NCBI RefSeq assembly: GCF_001447995.1
Contig: NZ_LDPE01000001.1
Coordinates: 1,984,001 to 2,048,000 of the forward strand
Origin: Maribacter dokdonensis DSW-8
GTDB taxonomy: Bacteria; Bacteroidota; Bacteroidia; Flavobacteriales; Flavobacteriaceae
Length of the DNA stretch: 64,000 nt
Reading direction: 5' to 3'
This document shows, piece by piece, positions 3,393 to 48,416 of this stretch; within the stretch, counting starts at the first letter, position 1; each line of letters begins with the position of its first letter. A program made the translations under genes and the position numbers. The notes under the pieces are model-generated. The model worked only from the letters and a program-made list of their open reading frames with translations. It did no database searches and was not told the origin of the DNA.

Positions 3393-4583
3393 ATGAAAAC
3401 AACAGTAAACAGAAGAGATTGGCTTAAAAAAGGAGTTCTTTCAGCTGCTGGAGTTATGGCAGCACCTTATTTGACCTACGGGGCTTTTCCGTCACAACCT
3501 ATTGCGTTAGATGCTAACGGGAATATTCCCTACACTCCTTTTTTTAAGGAGTATTTACCACAAGCACCAATGCAACCTTTAGCCTTGGCGGCTAAGCTAA
3601 ATGCAAATGAAAACCCTTATGGACCATCACCAATGGCTGTTTCTGCCATGCAGGAGTACGCACCAAAAGGAAATCGTTATGCATGGAAAGAACTATATCA
3701 GTTAATGGATAAGATTGCAATTGAAGAAGGTGTTAAGCAAGAGAATATAATGATGGGACCTGGCTCATCTGATCTTTTGGAAAAAACCGCCATGGTATTC
3801 TTTCAAAATGGAGGAAATATCGTTTCTGCGGACCCGGCGTATATGTCACTTATTAAAGTTGCAGAAGCAACGGGTGCCACTTGGAAACCAGTTCCACTTA
3901 AAAAAGATTGGTCACATGATTTGGCTGCAATGGAAGCAGCTGTAGATGATGACACCAAGTTGGTATATATCTGCAATCCTAATAACCCAACTGGTAGTAT
4001 GACAGACCATGATGAACTTATTGATTTTTGCTCTCGTGTTTCTGAAAAGACCCCCATTTTCGTTGATGAAGCCTATTTAGGATTCTTGGATGACGCCACC
4101 AAAAAAAGTATGGTATCATTGATCAATGAAGGTAAAGACGTAATCATAGCCCGTACATTTTCAAAAATACAAGGTATGGCAGGTTTGCGTGTTGGTTATA
4201 TTGTAGCACAACCAGAAACGCTAGGAATTATTCAAAAAATTACACGTGGCGGCATGGGAATCTCCTTACCATCTGTTTACGCTGCTATGGCAAGTATGGA
4301 TGATGTTGCCTTTAAAGATAAATCCAGAAAACTAAATAAAGAATGTAGAGACTATGTATATGAAAATCTTGACAGATTGGGGTTTGAATATGTGCCTTCT
4401 TCTACCAGCTTTATTATTTTCCCCATACAAATGGACGGTAAACCCTTCTTAGAGAAGATGACCGCCGAAGGTGTTGGTGTAAGAGCTTTTGAAATCTATG
4501 GTAAAAATTGGTGCCGAGTAAGTATGGGCACTATGGATGAAATGAAGTTGTTTACAACTGCACTTGAAAAAGTGCTCGTTTAA
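3393..4583 (+). CDS. Tat-exported class I/II (HisC-like) PLP aminotransferase
   Basis: 396 residues with a fold-type I PLP aminotransferase body and a Tat leader (NRRDWLKKGVLSAAGVMAA, about 6-24). Family motifs are in order: LNANENPYGPSP near 70, CNPNNPTGS near 195, DEAYLGF near 225, the PLP-lysine motif RTFSKIQGMAGLRVGY near 255, and a C-terminal arginine in NWCRVSMG. It most resembles the histidinol-phosphate/aromatic aminotransferase group. True HisC is cytoplasmic, so this is probably not the biosynthetic enzyme. A periplasmic transaminase would need PLP loaded before export, which Tat allows. The divergent Lrp regulator and downstream permease suggest an amino-acid-related role (inference). 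Confidence 0.85.
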   Translation: MKTTVNRRDWLKKGVLSAAGVMAAPYLTYGAFPSQPIALDANGNIPYTPFFKEYLPQAPMQPLALAAKLNANENPYGPSPMAVSAMQEYAPKGNRYAWKELYQLMDKIAIEEGVKQENIMMGPGSSDLLEKTAMVFFQNGGNIVSADPAYMSLIKVAEATGATWKPVPLKKDWSHDLAAMEAAVDDDTKLVYICNPNNPTGSMTDHDELIDFCSRVSEKTPIFVDEAYLGFLDDATKKSMVSLINEGKDVIIARTFSKIQGMAGLRVGYIVAQPETLGIIQKITRGGMGISLPSVYAAMASMDDVAFKDKSRKLNKECRDYVYENLDRLGFEYVPSSTSFIIFPIQMDGKPFLEKMTAEGVGVRAFEIYGKNWCRVSMGTMDEMKLFTTALEKVLV

Positions 4584-46461: not shown

Positions 46462-46535
46462 GGTCTGGTAGTTCAGTTGGTTAGAATACCTGCCTGTCAC
46501 GCAGGGGGTCGCGGGTTCGAGTCCCGTCCAGACCG
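46462..46535 (+). tRNA. tRNA-Asp (anticodon GTC)
   Basis: 74 bases. The acceptor 5' strand GGTCTGG pairs perfectly with CCAGACC, with discriminator G at 46535. The anticodon stem CCTGC/GCAGG encloses CTGTCAC, giving anticodon GTC. The T arm GCGGG-TTCGAGT-CCCGT is intact. The CCA end is not encoded. A consensus promoter lies just upstream and a terminator just downstream. The 3' portion is reused twice in degenerate form in the tandem repeat that follows. Confidence 0.95.
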
Positions 46536-46536
46536 C

Positions 46537-46567
46537 AAAAGCTCTCAAGAAATTGAGAGCTTTTTTT
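46537..46567 (+). terminator. Intrinsic terminator of tRNA-Asp (repeat copy 1)
   Basis: GCTCTCAA (46541-46548) and TTGAGAGC (46553-46560) pair with A-run before and seven T after. It starts one base past the tRNA 3' end. Confidence 0.85.
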
Positions 46568-46591
46568 GTTTAAAGCCTTTTCCTAAGTTGT

Positions 46592-46855
46592 ATGATTCAC
46601 CACTACGTATATATTATTTATTCCCCTTCACATGATGTCTACTACAAAGGGTATTCTACGGACTACTTGCGGAGATTAGAACAACACAACGCCGGCAAAA
46701 CATCTTATACCAAAAACAAAGGACCGTGGAAATTGGTCTATGCAGAAGAATTGGGCTCTAAAAAAGAAGCGCTCATAAAAGAGAAAATGCTGAAAAGACA
46801 ACATAGACAATATCTACTTTGGCTTTTCAAACAAAAAACCAACCTTATAGGATAG
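46592..46855 (+). CDS. GIY-YIG nuclease-family small protein (copy 1)
   Basis: 87 residues, the usual size for stand-alone GIY-YIG (UPF0213-like) proteins. The core reads HYVYIIYSPSHDVYYKGYS (residues 4-22), followed by RRLEQHN (27-33) with the conserved arginine R28, then GPWKLVYAEEL and KEKMLKRQ with the acidic residue expected for metal binding. The family are single-domain nucleases, many without known targets. The start is 24 bases beyond the tRNA-Asp terminator with no promoter box between, so expression should depend on read-through. The downstream copy differs at four residues: H3R, R27W, S38T and A51V. Confidence 0.82.
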   Translation: MIHHYVYIIYSPSHDVYYKGYSTDYLRRLEQHNAGKTSYTKNKGPWKLVYAEELGSKKEALIKEKMLKRQHRQYLLWLFKQKTNLIG

Positions 46856-46937
46856 TTTGGAATACCTGTCCCGGCTCGGCCGGGAGGGTCGCGGGTTCGA
46901 GTAACCGCTTGTCTCGGACCAGCCGAGATCCAGACCG
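46856..46937 (+). pseudogene. Degenerate tRNA-Asp body with hairpin insertions (copy 1)
   Basis: Beginning directly after the GIY-YIG stop, this segment keeps tRNA-Asp pieces in order: AATACCTG from the D/anticodon side, GGGTCGCGGGTTCGAGT from the variable loop and T arm, and TCCAGACCG from the acceptor 3' strand. The anticodon loop is replaced by TCCCGGC-TCG-GCCGGGA, a perfect 7-bp hairpin. The T-stem 3' strand is replaced by AACCGCTTG plus TCTCGG-ACCAG-CCGAGA, another hairpin. No acceptor 5' strand exists, so it cannot fold as a tRNA. Confidence 0.8.
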
Positions 46938-46938
46938 C

Positions 46939-46969
46939 AAAAGCTCTCAAGAAATTGAGAGCTTTTTTT
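46939..46969 (+). terminator. Intrinsic terminator (repeat copy 2)
   Basis: Same stem as after the real tRNA: GCTCTCAA at 46943-46950 and TTGAGAGC at 46955-46962, then seven T. Confidence 0.8.
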
Positions 46970-46993
46970 GTTTAAAGCCTTTTCCTAAGTTGT

Positions 46994-47257
46994 ATGATTC
47001 GCCACTACGTATATATTATTTATTCCCCTTCACATGATGTCTACTACAAAGGGTATTCTACGGACTACTTGTGGAGATTAGAACAACACAACGCCGGCAA
47101 AACTACTTATACCAAAAATAAAGGACCGTGGAAATTGGTCTATGTAGAAGAATTGGGTTCTAAAAAAGAAGCGCTCATAAAAGAGAAAATGCTGAAAAGA
47201 CAACATAGACAATATCTACTTTGGCTTTTCAAACAAAAAACCAACCTTATAGGATAG
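46994..47257 (+). CDS. GIY-YIG nuclease-family small protein (copy 2)
   Basis: An 87-residue near-identical duplicate of the protein at 46592-46855. Differences are H3R, R27W, S38T and A51V; the conserved R28, the Y-Y-K-G core and the C-terminal KEKMLKRQ strip are kept, and several silent changes are present in the DNA. Both copies remain open. The R27W change sits next to the catalytic arginine and could weaken activity, though position 27 is less conserved. Like copy 1 it lies directly behind a terminator and has no visible promoter of its own. Confidence 0.8.
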   Translation: MIRHYVYIIYSPSHDVYYKGYSTDYLWRLEQHNAGKTTYTKNKGPWKLVYVEELGSKKEALIKEKMLKRQHRQYLLWLFKQKTNLIG

Positions 47258-47339
47258 TTTGGAATACCTGTCCCGGCTCGGCCGAGAGGGTCACGGGTTC
47301 GAGTAACCGCTTGTCTCGGACTAGCCGAGATCCAGACCG
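47258..47339 (+). pseudogene. Degenerate tRNA-Asp body with hairpin insertions (copy 2)
   Basis: Second copy of the decorated tRNA-Asp remnant. Compared with the first, the anticodon-replacing hairpin has one change (GCCGAGA for GCCGGGA) that creates the perfect palindrome CTCGGCCGAG but one mismatch in the longer stem. The T-arm begins ACGGG instead of GCGGG. The second hairpin changes only in its loop (ACTAG for ACCAG), leaving its stem intact. Confidence 0.78.
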
Positions 47340-47340
47340 C

Positions 47341-47372
47341 AAAAAGCTCTCAAGAAATTGAGAGCTTTTTTT
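47341..47372 (+). terminator. Intrinsic terminator (repeat copy 3)
   Basis: Third copy of the stem (GCTCTCAA 47346-47353, TTGAGAGC 47358-47365), followed by seven T. One extra A precedes it. It closes the repeat array. Confidence 0.8.
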
Positions 47373-47428: not shown

Positions 47429-47695
47429 TTAAATCAACTTACGCTTAGTTCTTAGCATTCGCTCGTTCATTAATTGAGCATATAGTATCTGATTTTCTTC
47501 AATTAACCTTTCTCGCTCAGAAACCTCGGATACCCTTTCATCACTTACAAATGCACCATAAGATTCCTCATCTTTTTGACTTTCAATAGTTAAATCGTTC
47601 AACAATAGATTTAACTCGTTAGTTACTTCAGTTTCAGATAATGCTACGGTATTTTCTTTAGAGACCACAGATTTGAATAGGCTTAAAAACGTCAT
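47429..47695 (-). CDS. Hypothetical 88-residue protein
   Basis: A small acidic protein beginning MTFLSLFKSVVSKENTVAL. The C-terminal third (SERERLIEENQILYAQLMNERM) has heptad-like spacing and could form a coiled coil, so dimerisation is plausible. The first residues are mildly hydrophobic but there is no convincing signal peptide. I do not recognise a family. It lies on the opposite strand between the tRNA-Asp repeat array and the exopolysaccharide locus, with an ordinary codon pattern for this genome. Confidence 0.55.
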   Translation of the reverse strand: MTFLSLFKSVVSKENTVALSETEVTNELNLLLNDLTIESQKDEESYGAFVSDERVSEVSERERLIEENQILYAQLMNERMLRTKRKLI

Positions 47696-47936: not shown

Positions 47937-48416
47937 ATGTTGAAAAACTGGTATGTACTTTATGTAAAACCTAAGAATGAAAAAAAGGTAGCAGAAAGAT
48001 TATTGAGCCATCAAATTGAAGTCTACTGCCCAATGATAAAGGAAGTAAAGCAATGGAGCGACCGTAAAAAGACCATTGAAGTCCCTTTATTCAAATCTTA
48101 CGTTTTTGTACAAATTGCAGAATCGGACAGACAGAAGGTGTTTAACGTTCCTGGTGTTGTACGGTACTTGTACTGGTTAGGCAAACCAGCCATAGTGCGC
48201 AATACTGAAATGGAAGCTTTAAAAAACTGGTTATCTAATGATACGGTAGAAAACTACAGTTTATGTAAACTAGAATCTGGTGATAAGGTTGCCATTAAAT
48301 ATGGGGCGTTAAAGGATCAAAAAGCCGAAGTTATAGAAGTAGGTAAAAAACGTGTAAGATTGGTTCTAGAAGGTATGGGTGTTGTACTTAATATGAAAAT
48401 TAGGGATTTGGCATAA
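47937..48416 (+). CDS. upxY: UpxY-type transcription antiterminator (NusG-like)
   Basis: 159 residues. The NusG N-terminal domain spans about 4-100 (NWYVLYVKPKNEKKVAERL, CPMIKEVKQW, FKSYVFVQI, PGVVRYLYWLGKPA), and a KOW-like C-terminal part follows (about 108-150; SGDKVAIKYG, KAEVIEVGKKRVRL). In Bacteroides each capsule locus encodes such a protein, which binds the leader transcript of its own locus and prevents early termination. Here it is the first gene of the exopolysaccharide locus. The 573-base gap behind it holds a predicted promoter and a terminator-like hairpin that would be a natural target. Confidence 0.9.
   Translation: MLKNWYVLYVKPKNEKKVAERLLSHQIEVYCPMIKEVKQWSDRKKTIEVPLFKSYVFVQIAESDRQKVFNVPGVVRYLYWLGKPAIVRNTEMEALKNWLSNDTVENYSLCKLESGDKVAIKYGALKDQKAEVIEVGKKRVRLVLEGMGVVLNMKIRDLA

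Follow-up and report, generated by a model that had tools for sequence, protein, structure and literature searches.

The window analysed here, a 64-kb (64,000-nucleotide) stretch of the Maribacter dokdonensis DSW-8 genome (G000), contains a single ARAGORN tRNA call, tRNA-Asp(GTC), and this gene runs into the one tandem array that TRF reports at the site (46527–47372, period 402, 2.1 copies, 97% matches, 0% indels, score 1613). Each unit opens with a terminator-like hairpin, continues with an 87-aa ORF whose product carries a GIY-YIG domain (PF01541; 2e-15 for ORF 1, 2.9e-14 for ORF 2) and closes with a tRNA-Asp remnant (Table 1). The initial annotation had described a tandem tRNA-Asp/GIY-YIG module with a 402-bp period, which TRF, ARAGORN and Pfam confirm, and had counted two full units and a partial third; the full units stand, whereas the "third" is merely the tRNA 3′ end and terminator, extending to 47372. 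The tRNA-Asp-like body said to close each unit is indeed derived from the tRNA 3′ part, starting at approximately position 20, but is not a near-intact tRNA, as it is interrupted by two 17-base palindromes and was called neither by ARAGORN nor by the Rfam tRNA model at gathering threshold (L001). The array is best explained as two tandem copies of a ~400-bp cassette made up of a single-domain GIY-YIG gene and an incomplete, non-functional version of the tRNA that it targets. Five A's precede the stem of the third terminator copy, as at the empty site of genome G010, a weak hint that this copy is perhaps the original chromosomal terminator.

Table 1. Features of the tRNA-Asp array in the window (positions are those of the window).
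Feature	Position	Strand	Evidence
Intact tRNA-Asp(GTC), host gene and putative landing place	46462–46536	+	ARAGORN
Terminator-like hairpin and T-run, copy 1, opening unit 1 (46537–46938)	46537–46567	+	Sequence, TRF
ORF 1, 87-aa GIY-YIG nuclease	46592–46855	+	ORF list, Pfam, AlphaFold2
tRNA-Asp remnant 1, tRNA 3′ part with inserts	46859–46938	+	Sequence, alignment
Palindrome 1 of remnant 1, anticodon arm	46869–46885	none	
Palindrome 2 of remnant 1, T arm	46912–46928	none	
Terminator copy 2, opening unit 2 (46939–47340)	46939–46969	+	Sequence, TRF
ORF 2, 87-aa GIY-YIG nuclease, 95% identity to ORF 1	46994–47257	+	
tRNA-Asp remnant 2	47261–47340	+	
Palindrome 1 of remnant 2, single arm base altered	47271–47287	none	
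Palindrome 2 of remnant 2	47314–47330	none	
Distal terminator copy 3	47341–47372	+	Sequence

The window genome holds two close copies of the nuclease, both in the array, and a third match (34% identity) is of another GIY-YIG type. Pfam recognises one domain only in the window protein (residues 4–73 of 87) and no further DNA-binding module; across loci the protein measures ~77–97 aa, truncated copies apart. Tyr, Arg, His and Glu (Y18, R28, H32 and E64), which we take to be the catalytic residues of the GIY-YIG fold, are conserved in 116, 116, 114 and 117 of 117 aligned rows, respectively. The closest solved relatives of the AlphaFold2 model (pLDDT 91) by sequence and fold are UPF0213 proteins (1zg2, 1ywl) and SLX1, with one Foldseek match under 1e-3, and the model appears closer to these than to I-TevI. 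A nuclease preferring branched DNA would fit a target capable of forming a cruciform, be it the tRNA gene or a palindrome.

Downstream of the array lies a gene for an 88-aa protein (47429–47695, minus strand) without a Pfam or NCBIfam match, which also trails the arrays of G032, G004 and G024 (84%, 50% and 50–51% identity, respectively). It stands just ahead of an UpxY-type antiterminator (47937–48416), and the ORFs beyond that look, by eye, like a polysaccharide cluster.

Association of the nuclease gene with tRNA genes

Relatives were collected with a profile (A1) built from 16 of 22 linked proteins, all 16 carrying PF01541, in which the L036 protein was cut ahead of its C-terminal tail, whose coding sequence belongs to the next tRNA remnant; a control profile (A2) comprised 7 of 11 control proteins. 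A1 matched in 116 of 149 sampled family genomes (threshold 1e-9) and 122 of 198 sampled phylum genomes (threshold 1e-12), a match by itself being no proof of tRNA linkage. Loci entered the tally if they scored ≥65 with A1 and higher with A1 than with A2; duplicates were removed. Among the resulting 143 non-redundant loci, 116 had an intact tRNA within 180 nt, in every case (116/116) on the same strand, 13 had a tRNA fragment only and 14 had neither, six of the latter lying no more than 250 nt from where the available DNA ends. As an association, the tie between element and tRNA gene put forward in the initial annotation is therefore strongly supported.

Linkage was found in all sources (phylum search 23/26, family search 26/28, hand-picked regions 35/51 and 14/18, genus 10/10, genome contigs 8/10), the 60 and 20 survey regions having been chosen by hand, mostly by rank, among the matches listed, and hence not being random samples. 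Chance linkage would be ~0.4% per gene, assuming ~50 tRNAs in 4.4 Mb. The control GIY-YIG type of the same family (A2) was within 150 nt of a tRNA at none of 30 loci and within 500 nt at one of 30, and its flanks scored 18–28 against the whole tRNA library, below the fragment cut of 40; for linked loci, scoring the reverse strand without removal of the intact tRNA gave values up to 40. The linked tRNAs include the isotypes Asp, Arg, Met, Asn, Val, Leu, Ala, Pro, Ser, Phe, Cys and Glu. Rfam at gathering thresholds returned 17 tRNA matches and one fluoride riboswitch for 15 loci, the riboswitch (RF01734, 45.5 bits, 3704–3773, minus strand) being near a Ser-tRNA cassette on an Ignavibacteriae contig (L041), a locus from outside the Bacteroidota that likewise passes the tRNA-distance test.

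The cassettes occur in two layouts. Layout A, as in the window, consists of intact tRNA, terminator, ORF and 3′ remnant, and directly repeats the tRNA 3′ end; layout B consists of 5′ remnant, ORF and intact tRNA, repeats the tRNA 5′ part, and its ORF often ends a few bases from the tRNA start. Assigned by the nearest called tRNA, 64 of 117 loci follow layout A and 53 layout B, two B labels (L099, L120) resting on remnants that were themselves called as tRNAs. The idea that insertion rebuilds the tRNA 3′ end is consistent with the window, but this split, with the ORF upstream and a 5′ remnant at 53 loci, means that it does not extend to a general 3′-end rule. A tRNA-Arg can bear traces on either side at once, with an upstream palindrome-bearing remnant and a downstream cassette at L078 and with upstream as well as downstream ORFs at L084.

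The framing fragments were compared, after masking ORFs and same-strand tRNAs, with the adjacent tRNA and with every tRNA of other isotypes. The adjacent tRNA beat all other isotypes at 96 of 117 loci (own reverse-strand scores ≤28), and it scored at least 30 at 92 of 117. Most of the 21 misses (n = 16) scored below 30 and so had no clear remnant, L123 among them, where the nearest tRNA is Ser and the flank matches Pro; the rest were four Val loci beaten only by the tRNA-called remnants of L099 and L120, and L120 itself. Relatives free of tRNA fragments are thus not the general case, most having them. Nor is the duplication peculiar to the window genome: tandem arrays recur elsewhere, including in single-contig genomes (G026, G149, G182, G307, G344, G361), and 48 of the 143 loci have two or more ORFs, with a maximum of eight. 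L108 (G169:C34) has eight tandem GIY-YIG ORFs spaced 359–368 bp; its flanks correspond to a portion of a Met tRNA, and an intact tRNA was called nowhere in the 5 kb examined.

Within the genus Maribacter, 28 of 36 genomes have a nuclease match (E ≤ 1e-3), and many of these matches are distant. Close relatives lie beside tRNA-Asp and more distant ones beside tRNA-Phe, Arg, Ala and Met; for the most distant type no tRNA was present within the 1.8–3.2 kb examined. The tRNA-Asp itself matched once in 33 of 34 matching genus genomes, G000 included, and twice in G009. At tRNA-Asp, the arrays of G024 and G026 both consist of three copies spaced 402–403 bp, the third with a stop.

Occupied and empty alleles of one homologous site were seen for both tRNA-Asp and tRNA-Arg loci in the genus. 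Empty tRNA-Asp sites include those of G005, G010, G014 and G015, and decayed ORF starts are present at tRNA-Asp in G020 and G033. For tRNA-Arg(TCG), alignment of four empty genomes (G026, G030, G031 and G035) with the occupied G006 runs from tRNA base 1 to base 76–85 and resumes from tRNA base 29 at G006 base 956, giving an insertion of 927 bp (91 N included) with the native terminator after the last remnant. The same tRNA carries a 308-bp layout-B insertion in G001, compared with G002. A quick tree places the nucleases of G001 and G006 in separate clades, so tRNA-Arg(TCG) seems to have been entered at least twice. At the level of sequence, insertion leaves the tRNA intact together with a remnant of its own isotype, and the nuclease gene is thereby framed by direct tRNA-derived repeats; where a locus was examined closely, its native flank proved undisturbed. 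Nucleases of different clades sit at one tRNA locus in one genus, and arrays grow in tandem.

Isotype lineages and selection on the nuclease

The protein tree is a quick tree of 79 columns; among its 119 inner branches, 62 lack resolution and 12 are starred. Linked and control proteins separate in it (99, starred). Isotype requires 27 changes on this tree against a shuffled mean of 81.4, a value as low being reached in 0 of 200 shuffles, and the family label requires 33. The Leu, Met, Cys and Asp groups each span several families, and isotype is shared by 29 of the 60 most alike cross-family pairs compared with 239 of 3,008 overall, a count that omits rows from named contigs. The clustering and the cross-family pairs therefore indicate that lineages mostly keep one tRNA and seldom switch. 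Recent horizontal transfer between families was not supported, the best cross-family identity being only 68%, hence the isotype lineages may date far back and have descended mostly vertically.

One alternative holds that the cassettes are passengers of integrases, the tRNA repeats being attachment sites at which a tyrosine recombinase acting in trans moves the cassette, with the nuclease as cargo. Integrative elements that target tRNA genes insert in them and leave an intact tRNA and a partial tRNA repeat, and the direct repeat of layout A, a tRNA 3′ part, resembles theirs. Something may also have entered the same tRNA-Asp elsewhere in the genus: in G032 (L049) the Asp array is ~11 kb from tRNA-Asp on the same strand and retains 16 nt of the tRNA 3′ end, and in G013 (L047) array and tRNA-Asp are on different contigs, with 23 nt of the 3′ end retained, as though a larger integrative element had inserted at the tRNA-Asp 3′ end and split array from tRNA. 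However, the mirror layout duplicates the tRNA 5′ part, the units are spaced 301–403 bp across loci with the GIY-YIG ORF alone inside (no tyrosine or serine recombinase was found in the units read), and passenger status leaves both the isotype-following lineages and the near-invariant key residues unexplained. We consider it unlikely beside a homing-like origin.

Selection was examined in the Asp-type ORFs, for which dN/dS was 0.01–0.13 in 10 first-copy genome pairs, although dS was saturated in some pairs (up to 3.2; mean over 25 pairs undefined) and the low ratios are therefore rough in those. Copies 1 and 2 of the G026 array differ with a dS of 0.62 and a dN of 0.007; within the G000 and G024 arrays the counts are too low to carry weight. 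Judged from these substitutions, the Asp-type nuclease is under purifying selection. Divergence of the Maribacter Asp cassette is approximately that of the host flank, and as ORF identity is near flank identity, vertical descent inside the Maribacter Asp clade is favoured.

A nuclease that serves its host as a guard, attacking invading integrative elements or phages that copy the same tRNA in their attachment site, with isotype specificity reflecting the target, would suit the strong purifying selection, the near-vertical divergence alongside the host flank and the conservation of both old copies in G026. Such a nuclease should cut the host's own tRNA as well, however, and the patchy presence, the decayed copies and the G032 and G013 arrays split from tRNA-Asp, possibly by the very elements to be guarded against, also count against it. 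The guard reading is likewise improbable, and a homing-like cassette is preferred.

Palindromes within the tRNA remnants

Insertions of at least 8 bases were detected in 87 of 156 remnants (99 loci), 120 insertions in total. The mean longest perfect stem in remnants was 5.05 compared with 3.20 after shuffling, with a stem of at least 6 in 57; the shuffles were plain base shuffles, and the alignment at times splits a palindrome. Many insertions cost no tRNA base, and their points recur after positions 9, 15, 22 and 32 and in the T loop at 56–57 (69–71 in tRNA-Ser). Sequences at one point can differ, as at point 22 in Arg, Ala and Met tRNAs, and palindromes in general differ between loci and form just part of the remnant. 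One of them, CCTGCCTGCCGGCAGGCAGG, is a dispersed repeat with 0–19 sites per genome in 12 genomes (≤1 mismatch, reversed control 0), being dispersed in 10 of the 12 searched. The window palindrome was also considered as a genome-wide REP and rejected, since a search allowing ≤2 mismatches gives three sites, all inside the array. With CCTGCCTGCCGGCAGGCAGG dispersed and the window palindrome confined to its array, the palindromes are therefore a mixed lot. A cluster of 11 copies of CCTGCCTGCCGGCAGGCAGG, eight exact and three with one mismatch, was observed within ~32 kb of one contig (G189:C2:1200428-1232722).

We favour the view that the palindromes disable the leftover tRNA and hinder recombinational loss. 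In layout B they could possibly have the alternative role of regulating translation, by analogy with phage T4, where translation of a homing endonuclease is regulated by RNA hairpins (PMC2988022). In 11 aligned Asp remnants 87.1% of cells are paired, and covariation in their hairpins does not go beyond that of shuffles, hence a selected role of the palindromes is unsupported in the Asp remnants.

A further alternative is an RNA-level conflict, in which the protein would act on the tRNA or its transcript, the remnant being a decoy or regulatory RNA. Co-direction of linked ORF and tRNA at every locus fits such a conflict, as does remnant 1 of the window, which folds as a three-hairpin, tRNA-like shape. 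Conserved RNA structure in the remnant was not supported, fold z-scores being only -1.4 and -0.18 with no excess covariation, and among solved structures the protein comes closest to UPF0213 and to SLX1, a structure-specific DNA nuclease; an RNA-level conflict thus seems quite improbable.

The Val-type remnants of L099 and L120, in which the anticodon arm has been replaced, are labelled "tRNA-Stop(tta)" and "tRNA-SeC(tca)" by ARAGORN. Annotators should be warned that such remnants may pass as suppressor or selenocysteine tRNAs.

A proposed homing-like cassette and its comparison with known systems

The finding extends far beyond one genome, and its anatomy, tRNA linkage, empty sites and isotype lineages are all shown. 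The reading that we hold with moderate confidence is that these are homing-like selfish cassettes for which duplicated tRNA sequence serves as the landing place, with cutting and movement inferred. The nuclease would break an unoccupied tRNA gene of its own isotype, or a branched structure formed there, and repair would copy the cassette in, the tRNA repeats acting as portable homology arms independent of the chromosomal flank. Unequal exchange between the same tRNA repeats would then produce tandem arrays, and the remnant palindromes would prevent tRNA function and reduce recombination of the cassette out of the site. A bolder version, that minimal mobile cassettes parasitise essential tRNA genes across the phylum, each nuclease lineage using one isotype, its own tRNA copy supplying homology arms into any genome and palindromes locking it in, is possible, and we advance it tentatively.

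Plain local duplication, in which a resident gene near a tRNA slipped into tandem copies with no element behaviour, fits the 402-bp period with 97% matches and no indels, as after recent unequal exchange, but is refuted as a full account by the many tRNA isotypes across the phylum, the empty sites with clean insertion and the dS of 0.62 between G026 copies, and is very improbable on its own, slippage being the likely origin of copy number.

Several observations count against the homing-like reading. The intact tRNA remains beside the cassette despite being the proposed nuclease target, the Asp cassettes diverge in a vertical-like manner with cross-family identity of at most 68%, and the protein has no DNA-binding module. 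Furthermore, 14 of 143 loci lack a tRNA or fragment, another isotype than the adjacent one scores best at 21 of 117 (16 of these without a clear remnant), the third copies of G024 and G026 contain stops, and dS is saturated in some of the pairs compared.

Because the same arrangement recurs beside many different tRNA genes across Bacteroidota, it points to a type of self-spreading gene that takes up residence in tRNA genes and has drawn little notice. If so, an ordinary-looking small gene would mark a common, overlooked selfish insertion in this phylum, and would offer a testable case of a nuclease living in an indispensable gene without destroying it. It would also give a reason for the half-tRNAs and palindromes at some bacterial tRNA loci, and a route to isotype specificity in an 80-residue nuclease.

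Known systems share parts of this picture. Although UPF0213/YhbQ-type and SLX1 nucleases are the nearest solved relatives of the cassette nuclease by sequence and fold, we know of no tie between them and tRNA genes. A group I intron with a homing gene was rejected, no intron family being found by Rfam at gathering thresholds in 15 loci. REP-type palindromic repeats are similar in that one remnant palindrome is likewise dispersed, with palindromes forming only part of the remnant; a REP/RAYT system was rejected, as the nuclease is GIY-YIG rather than HUH and the palindromes, though present, are mixed. Unlike tRNA-targeting integrative elements, the cassettes have units of ~300–400 bp, no integrase and, at 53 of 117 loci, a 5′ remnant. 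Among the matches listed in a literature search that left most subscription journals and bioRxiv outside its coverage, we found no description of GIY-YIG genes lodged in bacterial tRNA genes.

Phage or plasmid carriers were also rejected, as no close relatives were found with one or two queries each: two queries against viral contigs confirmed no relatives, and one query gave matches in 15 phage records, all below 60% identity, both searches being able to detect close relatives only. In phages, SegB is a GIY-YIG homing enzyme enriched near phage tRNAs, where it drives a tRNA gene's segmental amplification; a break followed by recombination at microhomology is the likely route (PMC13096335). 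The cassettes resemble SegB and the free-standing GIY-YIG homing endonucleases of T-even phages (PMC13096335, PMC2988022) in having the gene near tRNAs of many isotypes and in tandem amplification. They differ in being chromosomal genes for a single-domain protein of ~77–97 aa, where SegB is phage-borne and free-standing, and in having an intact tRNA on one side and, on the other, a copy of the same tRNA broken by palindromes, with a mirror layout and isotype-bound lineages. By the features tested, the lack of a second DNA-binding module and of phage carriage, the cassettes are not members of the SegB family. SegB is nearest in behaviour, and neither SegB nor tRNA-targeting integrative elements are known to have the anatomy of the cassettes.
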